Shown piece after piece: positions 3,484 to 53,031 of a stretch of 64,000 bases of DNA (the first letter of the stretch is position 1; each line of letters starts with the position of its first letter). This DNA is from Alkaliphilus serpentinus (GTDB lineage Bacteria > Bacillota > Clostridia > Peptostreptococcales > Natronincolaceae), in contig NZ_WBZB01000024.1 of NCBI RefSeq assembly GCF_009017255.1, forward strand, positions 62,001 to 126,000. The letters run 5' to 3'. Both the position numbers and the translations under genes were made by a program. The notes under the pieces were generated by a model, which was not told where the DNA came from, made no database searches, and was given only the letters and a program-made list of their open reading frames with translations.

Positions 3484-4356
3484 ATGTTTATGGAGCAGCT
3501 AAGCAATGGTATAGCTTTAGGTAGTATTTATGCCCTTACTGCAATAGGATTTACAATGGTATATGGAATAATTAGGCTCATAAACTTTGTTCATGGAGAT
3601 ATTTACATGATGGGAGCTTTTTTTGCTCTTACGGGACTAACTGTTTTAGGGTTACCCCTGATTCCATCCTTTTTGTTGGGGATGATAGGAGCTTCAATAG
3701 TAGGAGTTTTGCTTGCTAAATTTGCATACAGTCCAGTTTTTAAGGCTCCTAGAATTAATCTTTTGCTTTGTGCCATTGGTGCGGCAATTTTTCTAGAGAA
3801 CTTTGCAATGTTGGTTTGGGGTCCAGAAACCCAATCCTTCCCAACTCTGATTGAGAATAAAACCTATAGTATATTTGGCTTTAAAGCAACAACCCTTCAG
3901 TTAATCATACTAGGCGTTTCTATAGCTCTGGTGTTAATACTAACTTATATCGTTAAGTATACCAAGCTTGGTAGAGCTATGAGATGTACCTCCCAAGATA
4001 TGGAGGCAGCCAAACTAATGGGAATCAATACCAACAGAGTTGTTTATTTTACATTTATGATAGGGTCATCCCTAGGAGCAGCTGCGGGTGTTTTGGTAGG
4101 GATGTACTATAAGGCAGCCTATCCCATGATGGGATTTACAGCTGGACTTAAGGCCTTTGTTTCAGCAGTAATTGGCGGAATAGGGAACATACCTGGAGCA
4201 ATGCTAGGTGGACTTATAATGGGGGTATCTGAAAGTTTAGGAGCAGCATACATTTCATCCGGTTATAGAGATGCAATTGCTTTTATAATATTGATATTCA
4301 TACTTCTTGTAAAGCCATCAGGCATTTTAGGTAAATCAGTAAAAGAGAAGGTCTAA
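3484..4356 (+). CDS. livH: Branched-chain amino-acid ABC transporter permease LivH
   Basis: A membrane permease of 290 residues with about eight hydrophobic segments and the LivH opening QLSNGIALGSIYALTAIGFTM. It should pair with LivM as the transmembrane channel of the importer. The reading frame opens at 3463, but the ATG at 3484 is preferred: GAGGG lies about 10 nt upstream and family members begin with a short M..QLxNG leader. livM starts 15 bases after its stop. The cytoplasmic EAA-like loop (YTKLGRAMRCTSQDMEAAKLMGI), which docks onto the ATPase subunits, is present. Confidence 0.93.
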   Translation: MFMEQLSNGIALGSIYALTAIGFTMVYGIIRLINFVHGDIYMMGAFFALTGLTVLGLPLIPSFLLGMIGASIVGVLLAKFAYSPVFKAPRINLLLCAIGAAIFLENFAMLVWGPETQSFPTLIENKTYSIFGFKATTLQLIILGVSIALVLILTYIVKYTKLGRAMRCTSQDMEAAKLMGINTNRVVYFTFMIGSSLGAAAGVLVGMYYKAAYPMMGFTAGLKAFVSAVIGGIGNIPGAMLGGLIMGVSESLGAAYISSGYRDAIAFIILIFILLVKPSGILGKSVKEKV

Positions 4357-48783: not shown

Positions 48784-49128
48784 ATGCATGTATTGTTTAT
48801 TGTTTTAAACAAAACTGAGTATTTGGATGACATTTTAACGGAGTTTGTAAACATTGGAGTCAAGGGAGCTACGATTTTAGATAGTCAAGGAATGGCCAGC
48901 GCCCTTGTAAATAATAATGATAAGGTCCCGATATTCGGATCTCTGCGGAGCTTTTTAGATAGCTCTAGGCCCTTCAATAAAACCATATTTACCCTTGTTG
49001 AGACGGATGAACTACTGGATGAGGCAATGAATTCGGTTAACAGGCTGGTTGGTGGCTTTAATCATAAAGGGCTAGGAATCATGTTTTCAATACCTGTAGG
49101 GAAGATTTGTGGAGTACCAAAGCAATAA
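48784..49128 (+). CDS. PII-like protein, paralogue 1 (antiporter-linked)
   Basis: A 114-residue protein with the beta-alpha-beta-beta-alpha-beta order of the GlnB/PII superfamily: strand MHVLFIVLN, helix TEYLDDILTEFVNIG, strand VKGATILDSQGM, a T-loop-like segment of about 25 residues (41-65), strand NKTIFTLVE, helix DELLDEAMNSVNRLV, strand GIMFSIPVG. PII proteins are trimers that bind nucleotides and gate transporters and enzymes. Canonical Tyr51 and the ammonium-transporter contact sequence are not seen, so it is a PII-like protein, not GlnB. An antiporter gene starts 24 bases on. RBS GGAGGAAG. It is about three-quarters identical by eye to the protein at 50494. Confidence 0.78.
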   Translation: MHVLFIVLNKTEYLDDILTEFVNIGVKGATILDSQGMASALVNNNDKVPIFGSLRSFLDSSRPFNKTIFTLVETDELLDEAMNSVNRLVGGFNHKGLGIMFSIPVGKICGVPKQ

Positions 49129-49152
49129 CAATAATTAGGAGGCGCATCATAA

Positions 49153-50361
49153 TTGGACATTCTTATTAAGATTAGTGTAGTACTTTTGGTAGGTATTTTA
49201 GGAGGCAGGTTAGCAAAGCTATTAAAATTACCAAATGTAACGGGTTATTTAATTGGGGGACTATTAATTGGACCATCCTTTTTAAAGGTAATTAATGATG
49301 GAGACATATCGAATTTTTCAATTGTTAGTGAGGTTGCATTGGCTGCAATAGCCTTTAGTATAGGTAGTGAATTTTACTATAAAGACCTTGTGAAGGTTGG
49401 AAAAAAGATCTTTATTGTCACATTCTTTCAGGCATTTTTAACGATTATTGCGGTTTTTTCTACATCCTATTTCTTATTAAACCAAAGTTTTCAACTAAGT
49501 ATACTATTGGGTGCAATAGCTGCTGCTACGGCACCAGCGGCTACAACAATGGTTATAAAGCAATATAATGCCAATGGACCATTAACAAAAACCATTTTGC
49601 CAGTGGTGGCTATAGATGATGCCATATGTGTCATGAGCTTTGGCATAGCTATGGCAGTGGTTAAAATCACCACCGGTAGTACTAATGCTTCGCTACTACA
49701 AATGCTCATTCACCCTGTAGCTGAGATATTTGGATCTTTGATAGTTGGAGTAATCATTGGAGCAATCCTGGTTTTTCTAGCCAACAAGGCAAAAAAACAG
49801 GACGAGCTTCAAACCATCGTAATAGCATTGGTTATAGCAGGGGCAGGATTAGCAAATACCCTACATCTATCACCGATATTGCTATGTATGTCAATTGGCG
49901 CAACCATAACCAATCTGATGCAAAACCCTAGAAGAGCATTTGAGGGACTTAATTACTTTACCCCGCCAGTATACCTCTTTTTCTTTACTCTAGCTGGAGC
50001 AGGGCTTCACTTAACGGTTCTATCAAAGCTAGGTTATATTGGATTGGGATATGTGCTGGCCAGAGCAGCTGGAAAAATCATTGGCTCAGCCATTGGAGCT
50101 AAGGTTGTTGATTATCCAGATGTGATCGTGAAGTATCTTGGTCTAGGATTATTACCTCAGGCTGGGGTGGCTATAGGATTGGCCATTGTGGTAAAACAAC
50201 AATTACCTGATATAGGAGGAACCCTTAGTACCATTGTTCTTGGTGGTGTCTTTGTATATGAGTTAATTGGCCCTGTTGCCGCCAAAATAGCAATAGAAAG
50301 GGCAGGAGAAATACCCAGTAGTAAGAAAACTGTCATCCCTAAACCTGCAAAAAGTGTATAA
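49153..50361 (+). CDS. CPA2-type cation:proton antiporter 1
   Basis: A 402-residue membrane protein with about twelve to thirteen helices and the Na_H_Exchanger fold of CPA2 (NapA/KefB-like): KLPNVTGYLIGGLLIGPSFL near the start, unwound-helix motif TAPAATTMVIKQY, and the paired aspartates Asp155-Asp156 (VAIDDAICV) that mark electrogenic exchangers. The second half has GLLPQAGVAIGLAI. It ends soon after the last helix: no TrkA/RCK domain. TTG start behind AGGAGGCG. Likely Na+ or K+ for H+ exchange, with the preceding PII-like protein as a candidate regulatory subunit (inference). Confidence 0.88.
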   Translation: MDILIKISVVLLVGILGGRLAKLLKLPNVTGYLIGGLLIGPSFLKVINDGDISNFSIVSEVALAAIAFSIGSEFYYKDLVKVGKKIFIVTFFQAFLTIIAVFSTSYFLLNQSFQLSILLGAIAAATAPAATTMVIKQYNANGPLTKTILPVVAIDDAICVMSFGIAMAVVKITTGSTNASLLQMLIHPVAEIFGSLIVGVIIGAILVFLANKAKKQDELQTIVIALVIAGAGLANTLHLSPILLCMSIGATITNLMQNPRRAFEGLNYFTPPVYLFFFTLAGAGLHLTVLSKLGYIGLGYVLARAAGKIIGSAIGAKVVDYPDVIVKYLGLGLLPQAGVAIGLAIVVKQQLPDIGGTLSTIVLGGVFVYELIGPVAAKIAIERAGEIPSSKKTVIPKPAKSV

Positions 50362-50378
50362 ACTAATAAGAAAATTTC

Positions 50379-50399
50379 AAGGACCTAAGGGTCCTTTTG
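50379..50399 (+). terminator. Terminator of antiporter 1
   Basis: Stem AAGGACC/GGTCCTT with a 4-nt loop, then TTGTTATTTTT. Confidence 0.75.
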
Positions 50400-50409
50400 T
50401 TATTTTTGT

Positions 50410-50442
50410 TTGACAATGTTTCATTACTATTGTAATAAAACA
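50410..50442 (+). promoter_or_regulatory. Promoter with operator-like dyad before PII-like gene 2
   Basis: TTGACA (50410-50415), 17 nt, TAATAA (50433-50438). A dyad TGTTTCATTAC / GTAATAAAACA (50417-50427 and 50432-50442, one mismatch) covers the spacer and -10, as expected for a repressor site. Confidence 0.55.
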
Positions 50443-50493
50443 TCAGTTGCATATATAATAATGTTGTAGATTAGTATAAGGGAGGTATGACAA

Positions 50494-50853
50494 ATGCATG
50501 CACTGTTTATTGTTTTAAATAGAACTGAGTACTTGGACGATATATTAACAGAGTTTGTCACGATAGGAATTAAAGGTGCTACGATACTTGATAGTCAAGG
50601 CATGGCCAGTGCCTTGGTAAATAGAAGTGAAAAGTCGCCCATTTTTGATTCTTTAAGGAGCTTCCTTTACAGCTCTAGACCCTTTAACAAAACGATTTTT
50701 ACCATTATTGAAGATGAGGAATTATTAGAGCAAGCAATGGATGCTGTAGATAAATTGGTTGGTGATTTTAATAAAAAAGGAGTTGGAATCATGTTTTCTA
50801 TTCCAATAGGGAAGGTGCGGGGTTTAAAAGAAAATCCTAATAATATCATTTAG
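50494..50853 (+). CDS. PII-like protein, paralogue 2
   Basis: A 119-residue PII-like protein, near-duplicate of the one at 48784 (shared FIVLN, TEYLDDILTEFV, KGATILDSQGMASALVN, SSRPFNKTIFT, GIMFSIP). The two differ mainly in the T-loop-like segment (residues 43-60) and C-terminus, regions that in PII proteins contact ligand and partner. It has its own promoter and terminator and no antiporter directly after it, so it may act on either neighbour. RBS GGAGGTATG. Confidence 0.78.
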   Translation: MHALFIVLNRTEYLDDILTEFVTIGIKGATILDSQGMASALVNRSEKSPIFDSLRSFLYSSRPFNKTIFTIIEDEELLEQAMDAVDKLVGDFNKKGVGIMFSIPIGKVRGLKENPNNII

Positions 50854-50872
50854 AAGTTTATAATAACCATTT

Positions 50873-50910
50873 AGAATCCTTTTATACGAAGGATTCTTTT
50901 GGTTTTTTTG
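50873..50910 (+). terminator. Terminator of PII-like gene 2
   Basis: Stem AGAATCCTT/AAGGATTCT with a 7-nt loop and TTTTGG then seven T. Confidence 0.85.
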
Positions 50911-51124
50911 AAGAATCATTCATTTAATCAAGCATGAGTTGCAATCAAAATGAATAATGTATAATAACTATTAATTACTGATAATTGCATAAAACACAGT
51001 GGAAACATTCTGATGATATAAATTTTTTGTAGAGGATAAAGGATAAACTTGTAATCTAATTGATTTTAATTGCAGATAGATCTGTTAATTTTCAGACAAT
51101 TGAATAAATTTGAACTAAGTTATG
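50911..51124. other. Intergenic stretch before PII-like gene 3
   Basis: AT-rich and non-coding. I see no gene, hairpin or repeat of note until the dyad at 51125. Confidence 0.4.
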
Positions 51125-51162
51125 CATTTTGGTTTTACCAAAATGGAATTCGATGATATAAT
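51125..51162 (+). promoter_or_regulatory. Operator-like dyad and -10 element before PII-like gene 3
   Basis: Perfect 9-bp arms CATTTTGGT/ACCAAAATG with a 3-nt centre (51125-51145) lie over the expected -35 region; TATAAT is at 51157-51162. The dyad differs from that before PII-like gene 2. Confidence 0.55.
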
Positions 51163-51196
51163 AATACATAGTTTAAAAACTGGGAGGTAAATACTC

Positions 51197-51547
51197 ATGG
51201 AATTGTTAGTGATTGTTTTAAACAAAACGGAATATCTAACGGATATTCTGGATGGTTTTGTTGAGGTAGGGATAAAGGGTGCTACTGTTATCGATAGCGC
51301 GGGAATGGGCCATTTAATAGCTGATCATGTTCCTTTCTTTGCAAAATTTGCAGATATAGAGGCAACTGAAAAAAATCACAGCAAAACCATTTTTACGGTG
51401 GTTAATTGCTGTGATGAAAGGGATAATGCAATAGAAATAATTGAAAAAACCGTTGGAGATATCAATGAACCAGATACTGTTTTCTTATTTAGTCTTCCTG
51501 TAAATATTGTGAAAGGACTTTCTGTTAAGAGGTGTGGTAAATGTTAG
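51197..51547 (+). CDS. PII-like protein, paralogue 3 (divergent)
   Basis: A 116-residue PII-like protein. It keeps the family pattern (LLVIVLNKTEYLTDIL, GIKGATVIDSAGM, SKTIFTVV, FLFSLPVNIVKGL) but its T-loop-like segment is different (HVPFFAKFADIEATEKN) and it has five cysteines, two adjacent in VVNCCDE and a C-terminal RCGKC. These might bind a metal or respond to redox. Its stop overlaps the ATG of antiporter 2 by 7 bases, so the two products are made together. RBS GGGAGG. Confidence 0.75.
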   Translation: MELLVIVLNKTEYLTDILDGFVEVGIKGATVIDSAGMGHLIADHVPFFAKFADIEATEKNHSKTIFTVVNCCDERDNAIEIIEKTVGDINEPDTVFLFSLPVNIVKGLSVKRCGKC

Positions 51548-52707
51548 GGAATTATCCATTGTTGGTAGGAGCTTTACTCCTATTGGGACTGTTAGGCGGT
51601 AAACTGGCAAAAAAAGTAAAGTTACCTTCGGTGACGGGCTACATTTTACTGGGCTTATTCATAGGCCCTTCATTTTTGAATATCGTTACTAAAGAAATGA
51701 TTAAGTCAATGGCCTTTATTAATCATTTGGCCCTTGGTATATTAGCATTATCTATCGGATCCCAGCTTCATCGATATGTTTTTTTCAAATTTGGTAAAGA
51801 CTTGTTTTTATTAGCAATTGGCGATGGGTTATTTACCTTTACCCTTGTATCAGGATTAACTTATCTTGTGGGGATGCCATTTGAATATGCAATATTATTA
51901 GGGGTTATGGCCCTAACGGTTTCACCCTCCGGGGTAATCACCATTATAAAGGAGTATGGAGCAAAGGGGAATTTTTCAAAGAACGTAATGGCCCTAGTTG
52001 CTATAGAAAACCTCAATTGTATCATCTTATTTGGTATAGTAGCTGCAGTATTACAGGGGCTGAAGAGTACTGATTCCTCTGGCTTTATGCTATTTCTTGC
52101 CCTGTTAAAAGAGTTGGGCTTAGCTCTTTTAGTTGGGAGCATTGCAGGGATGGCCAATAGTTATCTTATAAAGAAAAAACCCAATAACTCTAAATTCTTA
52201 GTATTTCTATTAGGGGTAATATTAATTAACACAGGTATTGCAGTTGAATTTGGTTTATCCTCTATATTAATCAATATGACCACTGGTGCCACTATAGCAA
52301 ATTTAATCAATAGAAAGTTTGTATTATCTTCTACATTAGAAAGAGTTGAATTACCGGTATTTGTAATATTTTTAACCCTTGCAGGGGCGAAGCTGGACAT
52401 TGCTTTGTTCGGCAGTGTAGGGATAATAGGAATTGCTTATATAGCTGGTAGACTGATAGGAAAAATTGGTGGAAGTCTAATAGCTGGAAGAATTACAACC
52501 CTGAGTGATAGCTATCGAAGAAATGTAGGCTTTGCATTAACTCCCCAAGCTGGGGTGGTAATAGGCTTAAGTATCATAGCTGAAGAAAAAATGCCTCAAT
52601 CCAATGGATTAATAACGGGTATCGTATTGACTGGTGTAATATTCTTTGAAATTGTCGGGCCCTTGTTATTAAAGAGAGCCCTTAAAAATACTGGTGAAAT
52701 CGCATAA
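51541..52707 (+). CDS. CPA2-like cation antiporter 2 with altered ion site
   Basis: A 388-residue membrane protein clearly homologous to antiporter 1 (KLPSVTGYILLGLFIGPSFL; LTPQAGVVIGLS). At the ion site, where antiporter 1 has Asp-Asp in VAIDDAICV, this one has Glu156-Asn157 in VAIENLNCI, and the TAPAAT motif reads VSPSGV. The second Asp is the essential carboxylate in CPA antiporters, so transport must differ: Glu may substitute, or it may be a uniporter or sensor. There is no cytosolic regulatory domain. Translationally coupled to PII-like protein 3. Confidence 0.82.
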   Translation: MLGNYPLLVGALLLLGLLGGKLAKKVKLPSVTGYILLGLFIGPSFLNIVTKEMIKSMAFINHLALGILALSIGSQLHRYVFFKFGKDLFLLAIGDGLFTFTLVSGLTYLVGMPFEYAILLGVMALTVSPSGVITIIKEYGAKGNFSKNVMALVAIENLNCIILFGIVAAVLQGLKSTDSSGFMLFLALLKELGLALLVGSIAGMANSYLIKKKPNNSKFLVFLLGVILINTGIAVEFGLSSILINMTTGATIANLINRKFVLSSTLERVELPVFVIFLTLAGAKLDIALFGSVGIIGIAYIAGRLIGKIGGSLIAGRITTLSDSYRRNVGFALTPQAGVVIGLSIIAEEKMPQSNGLITGIVLTGVIFFEIVGPLLLKRALKNTGEIA

Positions 52708-53031
52708 ATTTGAAAATTAACGCATGAAATGCTTTTGTTCTAACAGAAATGGAGATTTTAAAAACTATAAACATCAATATGTTGACAACAATAATATTAT
52801 TAGATAGTATTAATATGATAAGTATATCAATACTTTAAGACATCCAATTAAACTGGATGTTTTTAATTATATTTATAATTTAAATGAGGTTTAAAAAAAA
52901 TTGTTTTGTACAAAGATGAAAAGGTAAAGTATAAAATAAACCACATTCTACTTAGTAAGTATTTTTAATTAATAATATATTCATTAATTAAAACCAGATA
53001 AATGGTAAAATTAAATAGAGGAGGAGCAAGA
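52708..53031. other. Intergenic region before tig with a terminator
   Basis: Holds a stem-loop ACATCCA/TGGATGT followed by TTTT (52840-52866), which ends antiporter 2, then an AT-rich stretch where the tig-clpPX promoter must lie. I could not fix that promoter with confidence; no CtsR or CIRCE operator was seen. Confidence 0.55.

Follow-up and report, generated by a model that had tools for sequence, protein, structure and literature searches.

PII-like proteins paired with CPA antiporters in Alkaliphilus serpentinus and other Firmicutes: a possible PII-gated antiporter system

The subject of this work is a group of five genes at positions 48784-52707 of a 64,000-nt stretch of Alkaliphilus serpentinus DNA (GCF_009017255.1, NZ_WBZB01000024.1:62,001-126,000, forward strand; the whole stretch is hereafter called the window). 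Three of them encode small PII-like proteins, referred to below as sensors, and two encode membrane antiporters of the cation/proton antiporter (CPA) family (Table 1). An earlier note, made from the letters of this DNA, had proposed that they form a PII-gated antiporter system, an interpretation that is, overall, partly supported by the results given here. Its five open reading frames (ORFs) are confirmed, all on the + strand and at the coordinates it gave, with a gap of 24 bases between PII-like 1 and antiporter 1 and an overlap of 7 bases between PII-like 3 and antiporter 2; PII-like 2 is 74% identical to PII-like 1 and is a paralogue without an antiporter of its own. The interleaved five-gene layout holds for order and strand, but, to judge from the terminator-like hairpins that follow antiporter 1 and PII-like 2, transcription probably proceeds in three units, namely sensor 1 with antiporter 1, sensor 2 alone and sensor 3 with antiporter 2, and a single five-gene operon was rejected on this ground. 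The scan found terminator-like sites in excess of shuffled sequence (10 versus a shuffle mean of 3.2), which is not the case for promoter-like sites (18 versus 21.2).

Table 1. Genes and putative transcription signals of the region (window coordinates)
Feature	Position	Strand	Remarks
PII-like 1 (P0001)	48784-49128	+	114 aa; PF00543 16.3 bits, under cut-off; AlphaFold 2 model pLDDT 83, PII fold
Antiporter 1 (P0002)	49153-50361	+	402 aa, TTG start; PF00999 E 2.8e-33, 115.7 bits
Terminator-like hairpin 3' of antiporter 1	50379-50396	+	terminator scan
Promoter-like site 5' of PII-like 2	50430-50459	+	consensus match alone
PII-like 2 (P0003)	50494-50853	+	119 aa; PF00543 20.9 bits, under cut-off; stand-alone
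Terminator-like hairpin 3' of PII-like 2	50873-50897	+	terminator scan
Promoter-like site 5' of PII-like 3	51134-51162	+	consensus match alone
PII-like 3 (P0004)	51197-51547	+	116 aa; PF00543 19.5 bits, under cut-off; AlphaFold 2 model pLDDT 82, PII fold
Antiporter 2 (P0005)	51541-52707	+	388 aa; PF00999 E 4.3e-25, 88.8 bits
Terminator-like hairpin 3' of antiporter 2	52837-52863	+	terminator scan

Assigning the three sensors to a family was not straightforward. Eight proteins of the window were scanned with Pfam profiles (cut-offs of 25 bits for the canonical PII family PF00543 and 26.2 bits for PF00999), and no sensor reaches the PF00543 threshold; in an alignment of their relatives (A3), 38 of the 39 members match PF00543 at E<=0.1, the best at 4.5e-9. 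The single-chain AlphaFold models of PII-like 1 and PII-like 3 have the fold of the PII superfamily, a ferredoxin-like beta-alpha-beta-beta-alpha-beta arrangement with a T-loop between strands 2 and 3, and their best Foldseek matches in the PDB are PII proteins (probability 1.00), with TM-scores of just about 0.55 because their T-loop, to which the models give two short helices with low confidence values (block means 54-74), differs from that of the PII proteins in the PDB. In VIA alignment of the PII-like 1 model, GlnB shares the top Z of 10.7 (78 aligned residues) with other PII rows, followed by PotN (10.4) and the SbtB structures (9.6-9.8). The PII-type fold, on which the earlier note had staked its proposal beforehand, is thus borne out for PII-like 1 and PII-like 3, and PII-like 2 would share it through its identity to the modelled PII-like 1. 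The c-di-AMP receptor domain of DarA/PstA (PF06153, CdAMP_rec) has no match at E<=1 in the three sensors of the window. Nor do these resemble SbtB in what defines it, as their neighbours are PF00999 antiporters and a CGPxGC C-terminus is missing: PII-like 3 has a shorter T-loop with ADHVPFF and ends in CGKC, and PII-like 1 and PII-like 2 lack a C-terminal Cys pair. This terminal CGKC (window 51533-51547) is CGEC or CGVC near the end of close relatives, or lost, and it resembles the redox loop of SbtB.

We then read by eye, in a hidden Markov model alignment of 39 rows, the columns of the ligand pocket; we take the PII contacts for ATP phosphates and for 2-oxoglutarate/Mg to be Q39, E62, K90, R101 and R103. 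The equivalents of PII T29 and G35 are invariant in all 39 rows, and at the G37 position 38 have G or A. In no row is there a Lys at the K90 position, which is I, F, L or V throughout; the E62 position is Phe (38/39) or Ile (1/39) and never Glu, R101 is replaced by Gly (36 rows), Pro (2) or Lys (1), and no Gln stands at the Q39 position among the 37 rows read at this column. On this alignment, the canonical contacts for ATP phosphates and 2-oxoglutarate/Mg are replaced in the sensors; as T29 and G35 are kept while K90, E62, R101 and Q39 are not, the inter-subunit cleft is probably retained for a ligand with a chemistry other than that of ATP and 2-oxoglutarate.

The two antiporters belong to the CPA family PF00999 (Na_H_Exchanger), above its cut-off. 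By alignment, antiporter 1 has Asp-Asp on transmembrane helix 5 (TM5) and a Lys on TM10, and antiporter 2 has Glu-Asn instead of Asp-Asp and keeps the Lys; we take this Lys to be motif position 8, from our own reading against the EcNhaA sequence. The CPA2 motif is described as having no Glu at position 5, Asp at 7 and Lys at 8, the position-7 Asp of TM5 being conserved in 94% of CPAs and the Asp-Asp plus Lys set being tied to electrogenic exchange (PMC6181914). The NCBIfam profile for CPA2, TIGR00932, scores 52.4 and 33.9 bits, far under its cut-off of 238.3. Set against the motif, with the Lys placed through EcNhaA, antiporter 1 fits (DD, K) and antiporter 2 reads EN, K. TIGR00932 does not certify the CPA2 label that the antiporters had been given, which can be kept only as a provisional one. 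Antiporter 2 may have a different function, and plain Na+/K+ exchange may not suit it, because it lacks the Asp found in nearly all CPAs. This is not a peculiarity of the window, since over 180 paired rows from related loci (see below) Asp-Asp occurs in 153 and the TM10 Lys in 177, and position 7 is Asn or Gly in 21, antiporter 2 included. The Asn-for-Asp branch consists of antiporter 2 and its relatives at loci L010, L011, L013-L016, L018-L020, L025, L026 and L046; Gly is found in 7 further rows.

Both antiporters had been said to end after the membrane domain without a TrkA/RCK domain. This is true of the window pair, RCK/TrkA having no match at E<=1 in the eight proteins scanned, and of the 170 full-length antiporter ORFs that were measured (start codons chosen by script, some regions duplicated, a few unpaired), which are 375-420 amino acids long with fewer than 40 residues past the profile end and hence have no room for a regulatory domain. 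They span more than one CPA branch: PF00999 scores about 240 bits at L071, L083, L098 and L104 versus 66 at L040 and the 116 and 89 of the window.

How widely, then, does a PII-like gene lie beside such an antiporter? A sensor was counted as adjacent if a PF00999-type antiporter lay no more than 500 bp away on its strand, and sensors were searched for with a profile of the three window proteins. Within the family, 14 of the 20 genomes have a match, source genome included; in a phylum sample, 85 of 398 genomes have one at E<=1e-5, and the E-values there are bimodal: 90 matches in 76 genomes lie at or below 8.2e-22, and the 11 weak rows are no better than 1.8e-8. Contigs from 84,980 species, scanned with a pattern, gave 526 stretches, 510 of them encoding a relative; the best 80 are called here the named loci, and their titles include Alkaliphilus, Anaerovirgula, Tissierella, Clostridium, Erysipelothrix, Atopostipes and others. 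Finally, a second phylum-level group, the phylum of the Erysipelothrix locus L162 sampled through a different set of genomes, has a match in 17 of 149 genomes. An adjacent antiporter was found for all 17 family instances outside the source genome (all sensor first), for 78 of 87 in the phylum sample (covering every strong instance outside the source genome), for 80 of 83 in the named loci and for 17 of 20 in the second group. One has to keep in mind that these counts must not be summed because the four sets overlap in part (L132 and L024, for example, are the same region). The recurrence of the pairing, on which the earlier note had also staked its proposal, is therefore found not only in this phylum but also in the second phylum-level group. 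Across the sets, the median distance between the open frames of sensor and antiporter is -11 to 3 bp; the gene order varies, the antiporter coming first in 70 of the 80 paired instances of the named loci. A phylum search around another locus, L181, had matches in 36 of 149 genomes, but at contig coordinates already present in the phylum sample, and is not counted as independent; the record of L181, titled as a Desulfovibrio sp. metagenome-assembled genome, groups with the phylum of the window in the genome search and is probably mislabelled.

The converse was also examined in the 398 genomes, source included: a PII-like gene lies within 700 bp of 52 of 57 antiporter matches at or above 430 bits, of 5 of 18 at 380-430 bits and of 10 of 38 below, the top bin being biased because the antiporter profile was built from the antiporters of these same loci and at most four candidates were scored per genome. 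Carriage by plasmids or phages was considered and rejected, as the search gave two records of a plasmid collection, at 33-37% identity and one of them 2.6 Mb long, and no phage record. A single-protein scan of the contig collection gave 57 pattern stretches, none of them confirmed. Weak PII-like matches (L023, L109-L112 and L230, E 9.8e-5 to 1.8e-8) are a separate group, none of the six adjoining an antiporter in the flanks examined; weak rows, of which 4 of the 11 from the phylum sample were retrieved, were excluded from all counts. This weak group adjoins another membrane protein, presumably DUF1538-like, and makes up a second PII-like/membrane pair; the ORFs of L023 and L230 are 224-230 amino acids long, with two PII-like stretches in L023.

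In the source genome (99.75% complete), a PF00999 search found two genes alone, both in this region, which together with the pairing counts rules out a chance neighbourhood. The same genome has no PF00543 protein above cut-off and no AmtB match, and its one DarA gene lies elsewhere, so the three sensors are unlikely to be ordinary nitrogen PII proteins; with the replaced contacts added, GlnK-type nitrogen control was rejected as an explanation. A weak PF00543 match of 15.3 bits (L272, G000:C17:55705-55905) lies upstream of the window in a 175-residue frame; its product resembles a membrane protein that ends in a small domain and is, by eye, DUF2179/YitT-like.

Pairs are not only adjacent, they also diverge together. 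Distances among sensors correlate with those among antiporters (Mantel r 0.66 for 180 pairs, 0 of 2000 permutations as high; r 0.68 over 176 one-to-one pairs). Because species history alone would give such a correlation, real partners were compared with partners swapped within a genome, and they did better in 16 of the 17 genomes with two diverged pairs (17 of 22 comparisons overall), these 17 genomes not being all independent, since closely related ones such as G010 and G011 are among them. The one genome that departs from this holds L042 and L055, whose sensors are 78% identical and whose antiporters are 18% identical; here, the partner looks to have been swapped. Specific types also go together: antiporters with DN or EN on TM5 have a sensor with ADH or ADR in 12 of 14 rows (rows not one-to-one), the two others being a close variant, AHHVPFF at L014, and an ambiguous neighbour at L020; an ADH/ADR sensor is found in 4 of the 153 rows with a DD antiporter and in 3 of the 4 with an NG antiporter. 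Judged from these comparisons, specific pairs are linked over the long term, which is not evidence of contact.

A second regulatory layer is present in part of the relatives. The cyclic di-AMP (c-di-AMP) riboswitch, Rfam RF00379, was found in 43 of 134 loci (2/20, 2/18, 6/18, 0/20, 8/18, 15/20 and 10/20, several being the same region retrieved twice), and our own model, built from 19 RF00379 loci, matches in 6 of 94 loci of one set and 32 of 80 of another. In 42 loci (some duplicated), the riboswitch lies on the strand of the antiporter and ends 28-215 bp 5' of the antiporter domain. When the named loci are sorted by gene order (78 of 80 could be classed), it occurs in 31 of 65 antiporter-first, 0 of 10 sensor-first and 1 of 3 antiporter-less loci. 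At the antiporter-less locus L134, it (3794-3925) ends 82 bp 5' of an orphan PII-like gene (4001-4348), with genes nearby that look by eye like FeoA/FeoB. A c-di-AMP riboswitch inside the window was looked for and rejected, with no match in it by the Rfam gathering score or by our own model to E 10, and none in its 17 family loci, so that the c-di-AMP link of the window is one of kinship alone. The link to osmotic or ionic state put forward in the earlier note is thus favoured by the riboswitches that precede the operon in relatives, but finds nothing of the kind at the window itself. The sole Rfam match of the window at gathering score is a T-box leader (RF00230, 31846-32064, 136.7 bits). The source genome has three c-di-AMP riboswitches elsewhere, before an apparent acetyltransferase and two apparent cell-wall hydrolases (named by eye).

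The leaders of the relatives (41 antiporter leaders and that of L134) suggest how this riboswitch may act. In 36 of 42, a terminator hairpin starts within the 3' aptamer tail (boundaries taken from the model), and a stricter script finds hairpin plus T-run in 34; the consensus terminator scan found one in L132 and none in L171. The CCAAG of the 3' tail can pair with CTTGG of an aptamer loop, a pairing kept in 95.6% of cells with both-side changes at 2 of 5 pairs (19 leaders). The whole named structure has a covariation score above all 500 shuffles, the structure having been chosen on the same 19 sequences, and further pair types are not above shuffles (500/500 as high). Because the left arm of the terminator starts in the tail that pairs with the loop, the bound aptamer would compete with the terminator, and the riboswitch of this branch is predicted to be of the ON type, c-di-AMP inducing the antiporter and not repressing it; this is a lead only, since the overlap with the pseudoknot strand is about 3 bases in most leaders. 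The three riboswitches of the source genome differ, with a hairpin 75 nt downstream, a weak hairpin 63 nt downstream and none. Such competition has been the argument for an ON switch in the case of the Na+ riboswitch, in a report that has the c-di-AMP riboswitch as an OFF switch with another layout (PMC9337991). An ON switch would suit K+ export at high c-di-AMP, by analogy with KhtTU as described in PMC10117811.

Taken together, we consider it probable (roughly 0.62) that each pair consists of a dedicated PII-like regulator gating its own antiporter within ion or osmotic control, to which the module would belong because the operon of one branch is also under a c-di-AMP riboswitch. The sensor would be a small cytoplasmic protein, trimeric as in its family, with a small ligand in the inter-subunit cleft, other than the combination of Mg-ATP and 2-oxoglutarate that PII binds. 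Its T-loop, with a conserved P-x-F segment, may dock on the antiporter from the cytoplasm, the likeliest site being the cleft that separates its gate and transport domains, by analogy with SbtB on SbtA, a transporter of the same fold; the sensor would then lock or release the antiporter, thereby doing what an RCK domain or subunit does in the Kef, CpaA and KhtTU systems. As for PII-like 2, it probably serves as an additional sensor, either in trans or by forming mixed trimers with PII-like 1. That all this amounts to a large class of PII-gated cation/proton antiporters in Firmicutes, with a trimeric sensor lacking classical nucleotide contacts on a dimeric elevator antiporter and with one branch under an ON-type c-di-AMP riboswitch, is a wider and more tentative proposition, which we hold to be possible but short of probable.

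Several observations weigh against gating by a dedicated partner. Co-inheritance as an operon would be expected to give congruent trees even without contact, and the T-loop columns track antiporter divergence no better than the core (Mantel 0.58 versus 0.66), so that the idea of the T-loop as the part that best follows the antiporter is not supported. The riboswitch, as said, is missing at the window and its family loci. No fused sensor-antiporter ORF was found in 278 loci. Some sensors have no same-strand antiporter: leaving aside misses at contig ends (2 of 9 in the phylum sample, 1 of 3 in the named loci), there are 7 among 87 in the phylum sample, 2 among 83 in the named loci and 3 among 20 in the second group, besides PII-like 2. 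Conversely, 46 of the 113 related antiporters above threshold have no neighbouring sensor, 41 of these scoring below 430 bits. Among the misses of the phylum sample, L085 has a divergent antiporter; L075, L076, L079 and L082 are conserved orphan sensors of four genomes of one family (f66), beside genes other than antiporters.

Such orphans, including PII-like 2 and the sensor of L134 with its own riboswitch upstream, are what one would expect if sensor and antiporter were merely co-regulated neighbours, the sensor reading the same ionic or second-messenger state and acting on another target, with the operon serving joint expression alone. The variable gene order agrees with this, as does the general knowledge that PII proteins often have several targets; yet the gene beside the sensor nearly always encodes a PF00999 antiporter that lacks a regulatory domain, also where that antiporter is from a different CPA branch, and real pairs fit better than swapped ones in nearly all genomes with diverged pairs, which makes this explanation unlikely. 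The logic could also be reversed, with an antiporter-like protein sequestering or priming the sensor as AmtB does GlnK, the free sensor regulating metabolism and the Asp-less antiporters being receptors or carrying another solute. The Asn or Gly at TM5 position 7 in a minority of pairs, antiporter 2 included, could be understood in this way, considering the near-universal Asp of CPAs (PMC6181914), but most pairs have the Asp-Asp and almost all the TM10 Lys of working antiporters, and we regard the reversal as quite improbable. Least credible of all is a PII-like trimer that is a fixed structural or assembly part and senses nothing, for which near-obligate pairing and loss of the nucleotide-phosphate contacts might speak, but the invariant T29/G35 equivalents and the exchange of E62 and R101 for other conserved residues suggest a different ligand, not none, and sensors also occur alone.

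If each PII-like protein does gate its antiporter, PII signalling would be extended to K+/Na+/pH balance, antiporters without RCK domains would have a partner-based control, and a trimer acting on a dimer would pose a symmetry puzzle. PII control of transporters and separate small regulators of CPA antiporters are both known; for their combination, for its spread and for its riboswitch no description came up in open-licence PMC literature, nor did a report of a PII-like/CPA antiporter pair. Among known systems, PotN of Lentilactobacillus hilgardii (7o4x) is likewise a Firmicute PII-like protein close to PII-like 1 in VIA alignment, but with 21% identity over the aligned part. The c-di-AMP-binding DarA/PstA is also a PII-like sensor of Firmicutes, but constitutes a separate family, PF06153, whose gene in the source genome lies elsewhere. 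GlnK-AmtB shares the conserved gene pair of PII protein and membrane transporter, with the T-loop as effector part (PMC10710835); it differs by its ATP/2-oxoglutarate contacts, replaced in our sensors, and by the absence from the source genome of an AmtB match and of a PII protein over cut-off. In KhtT-KhtU, CpeA-CpeB, CpaA and Kef, as here, a CPA antiporter is controlled by a small cytoplasmic partner or a C-terminal domain, c-di-AMP being bound by KhtT and CpeA according to PMC10117811; their regulator, however, is RCK_C, whereas the one proposed here is PII-like. A further parallel is SbtA-SbtB, where a PII-like gene also lies beside a transporter and where, as with PII-like 3, the sensor ends in a Cys pair; no chain labelled SbtB was among the sequence matches of our sensors, and SbtA is a trimeric Na+/bicarbonate transporter whose SbtB carries CGPxGC, whereas CPA antiporters and other T-loops are found here, in Firmicutes. 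SbtA is described as sharing the CPA antiporter fold with inverted topology (PMC9477730), and the SbtB T-loop as inserting into its cleft between gate and core domains (PMC8352866). This common fold makes the docking idea directly testable, with the c-di-AMP riboswitch as a physiological handle.

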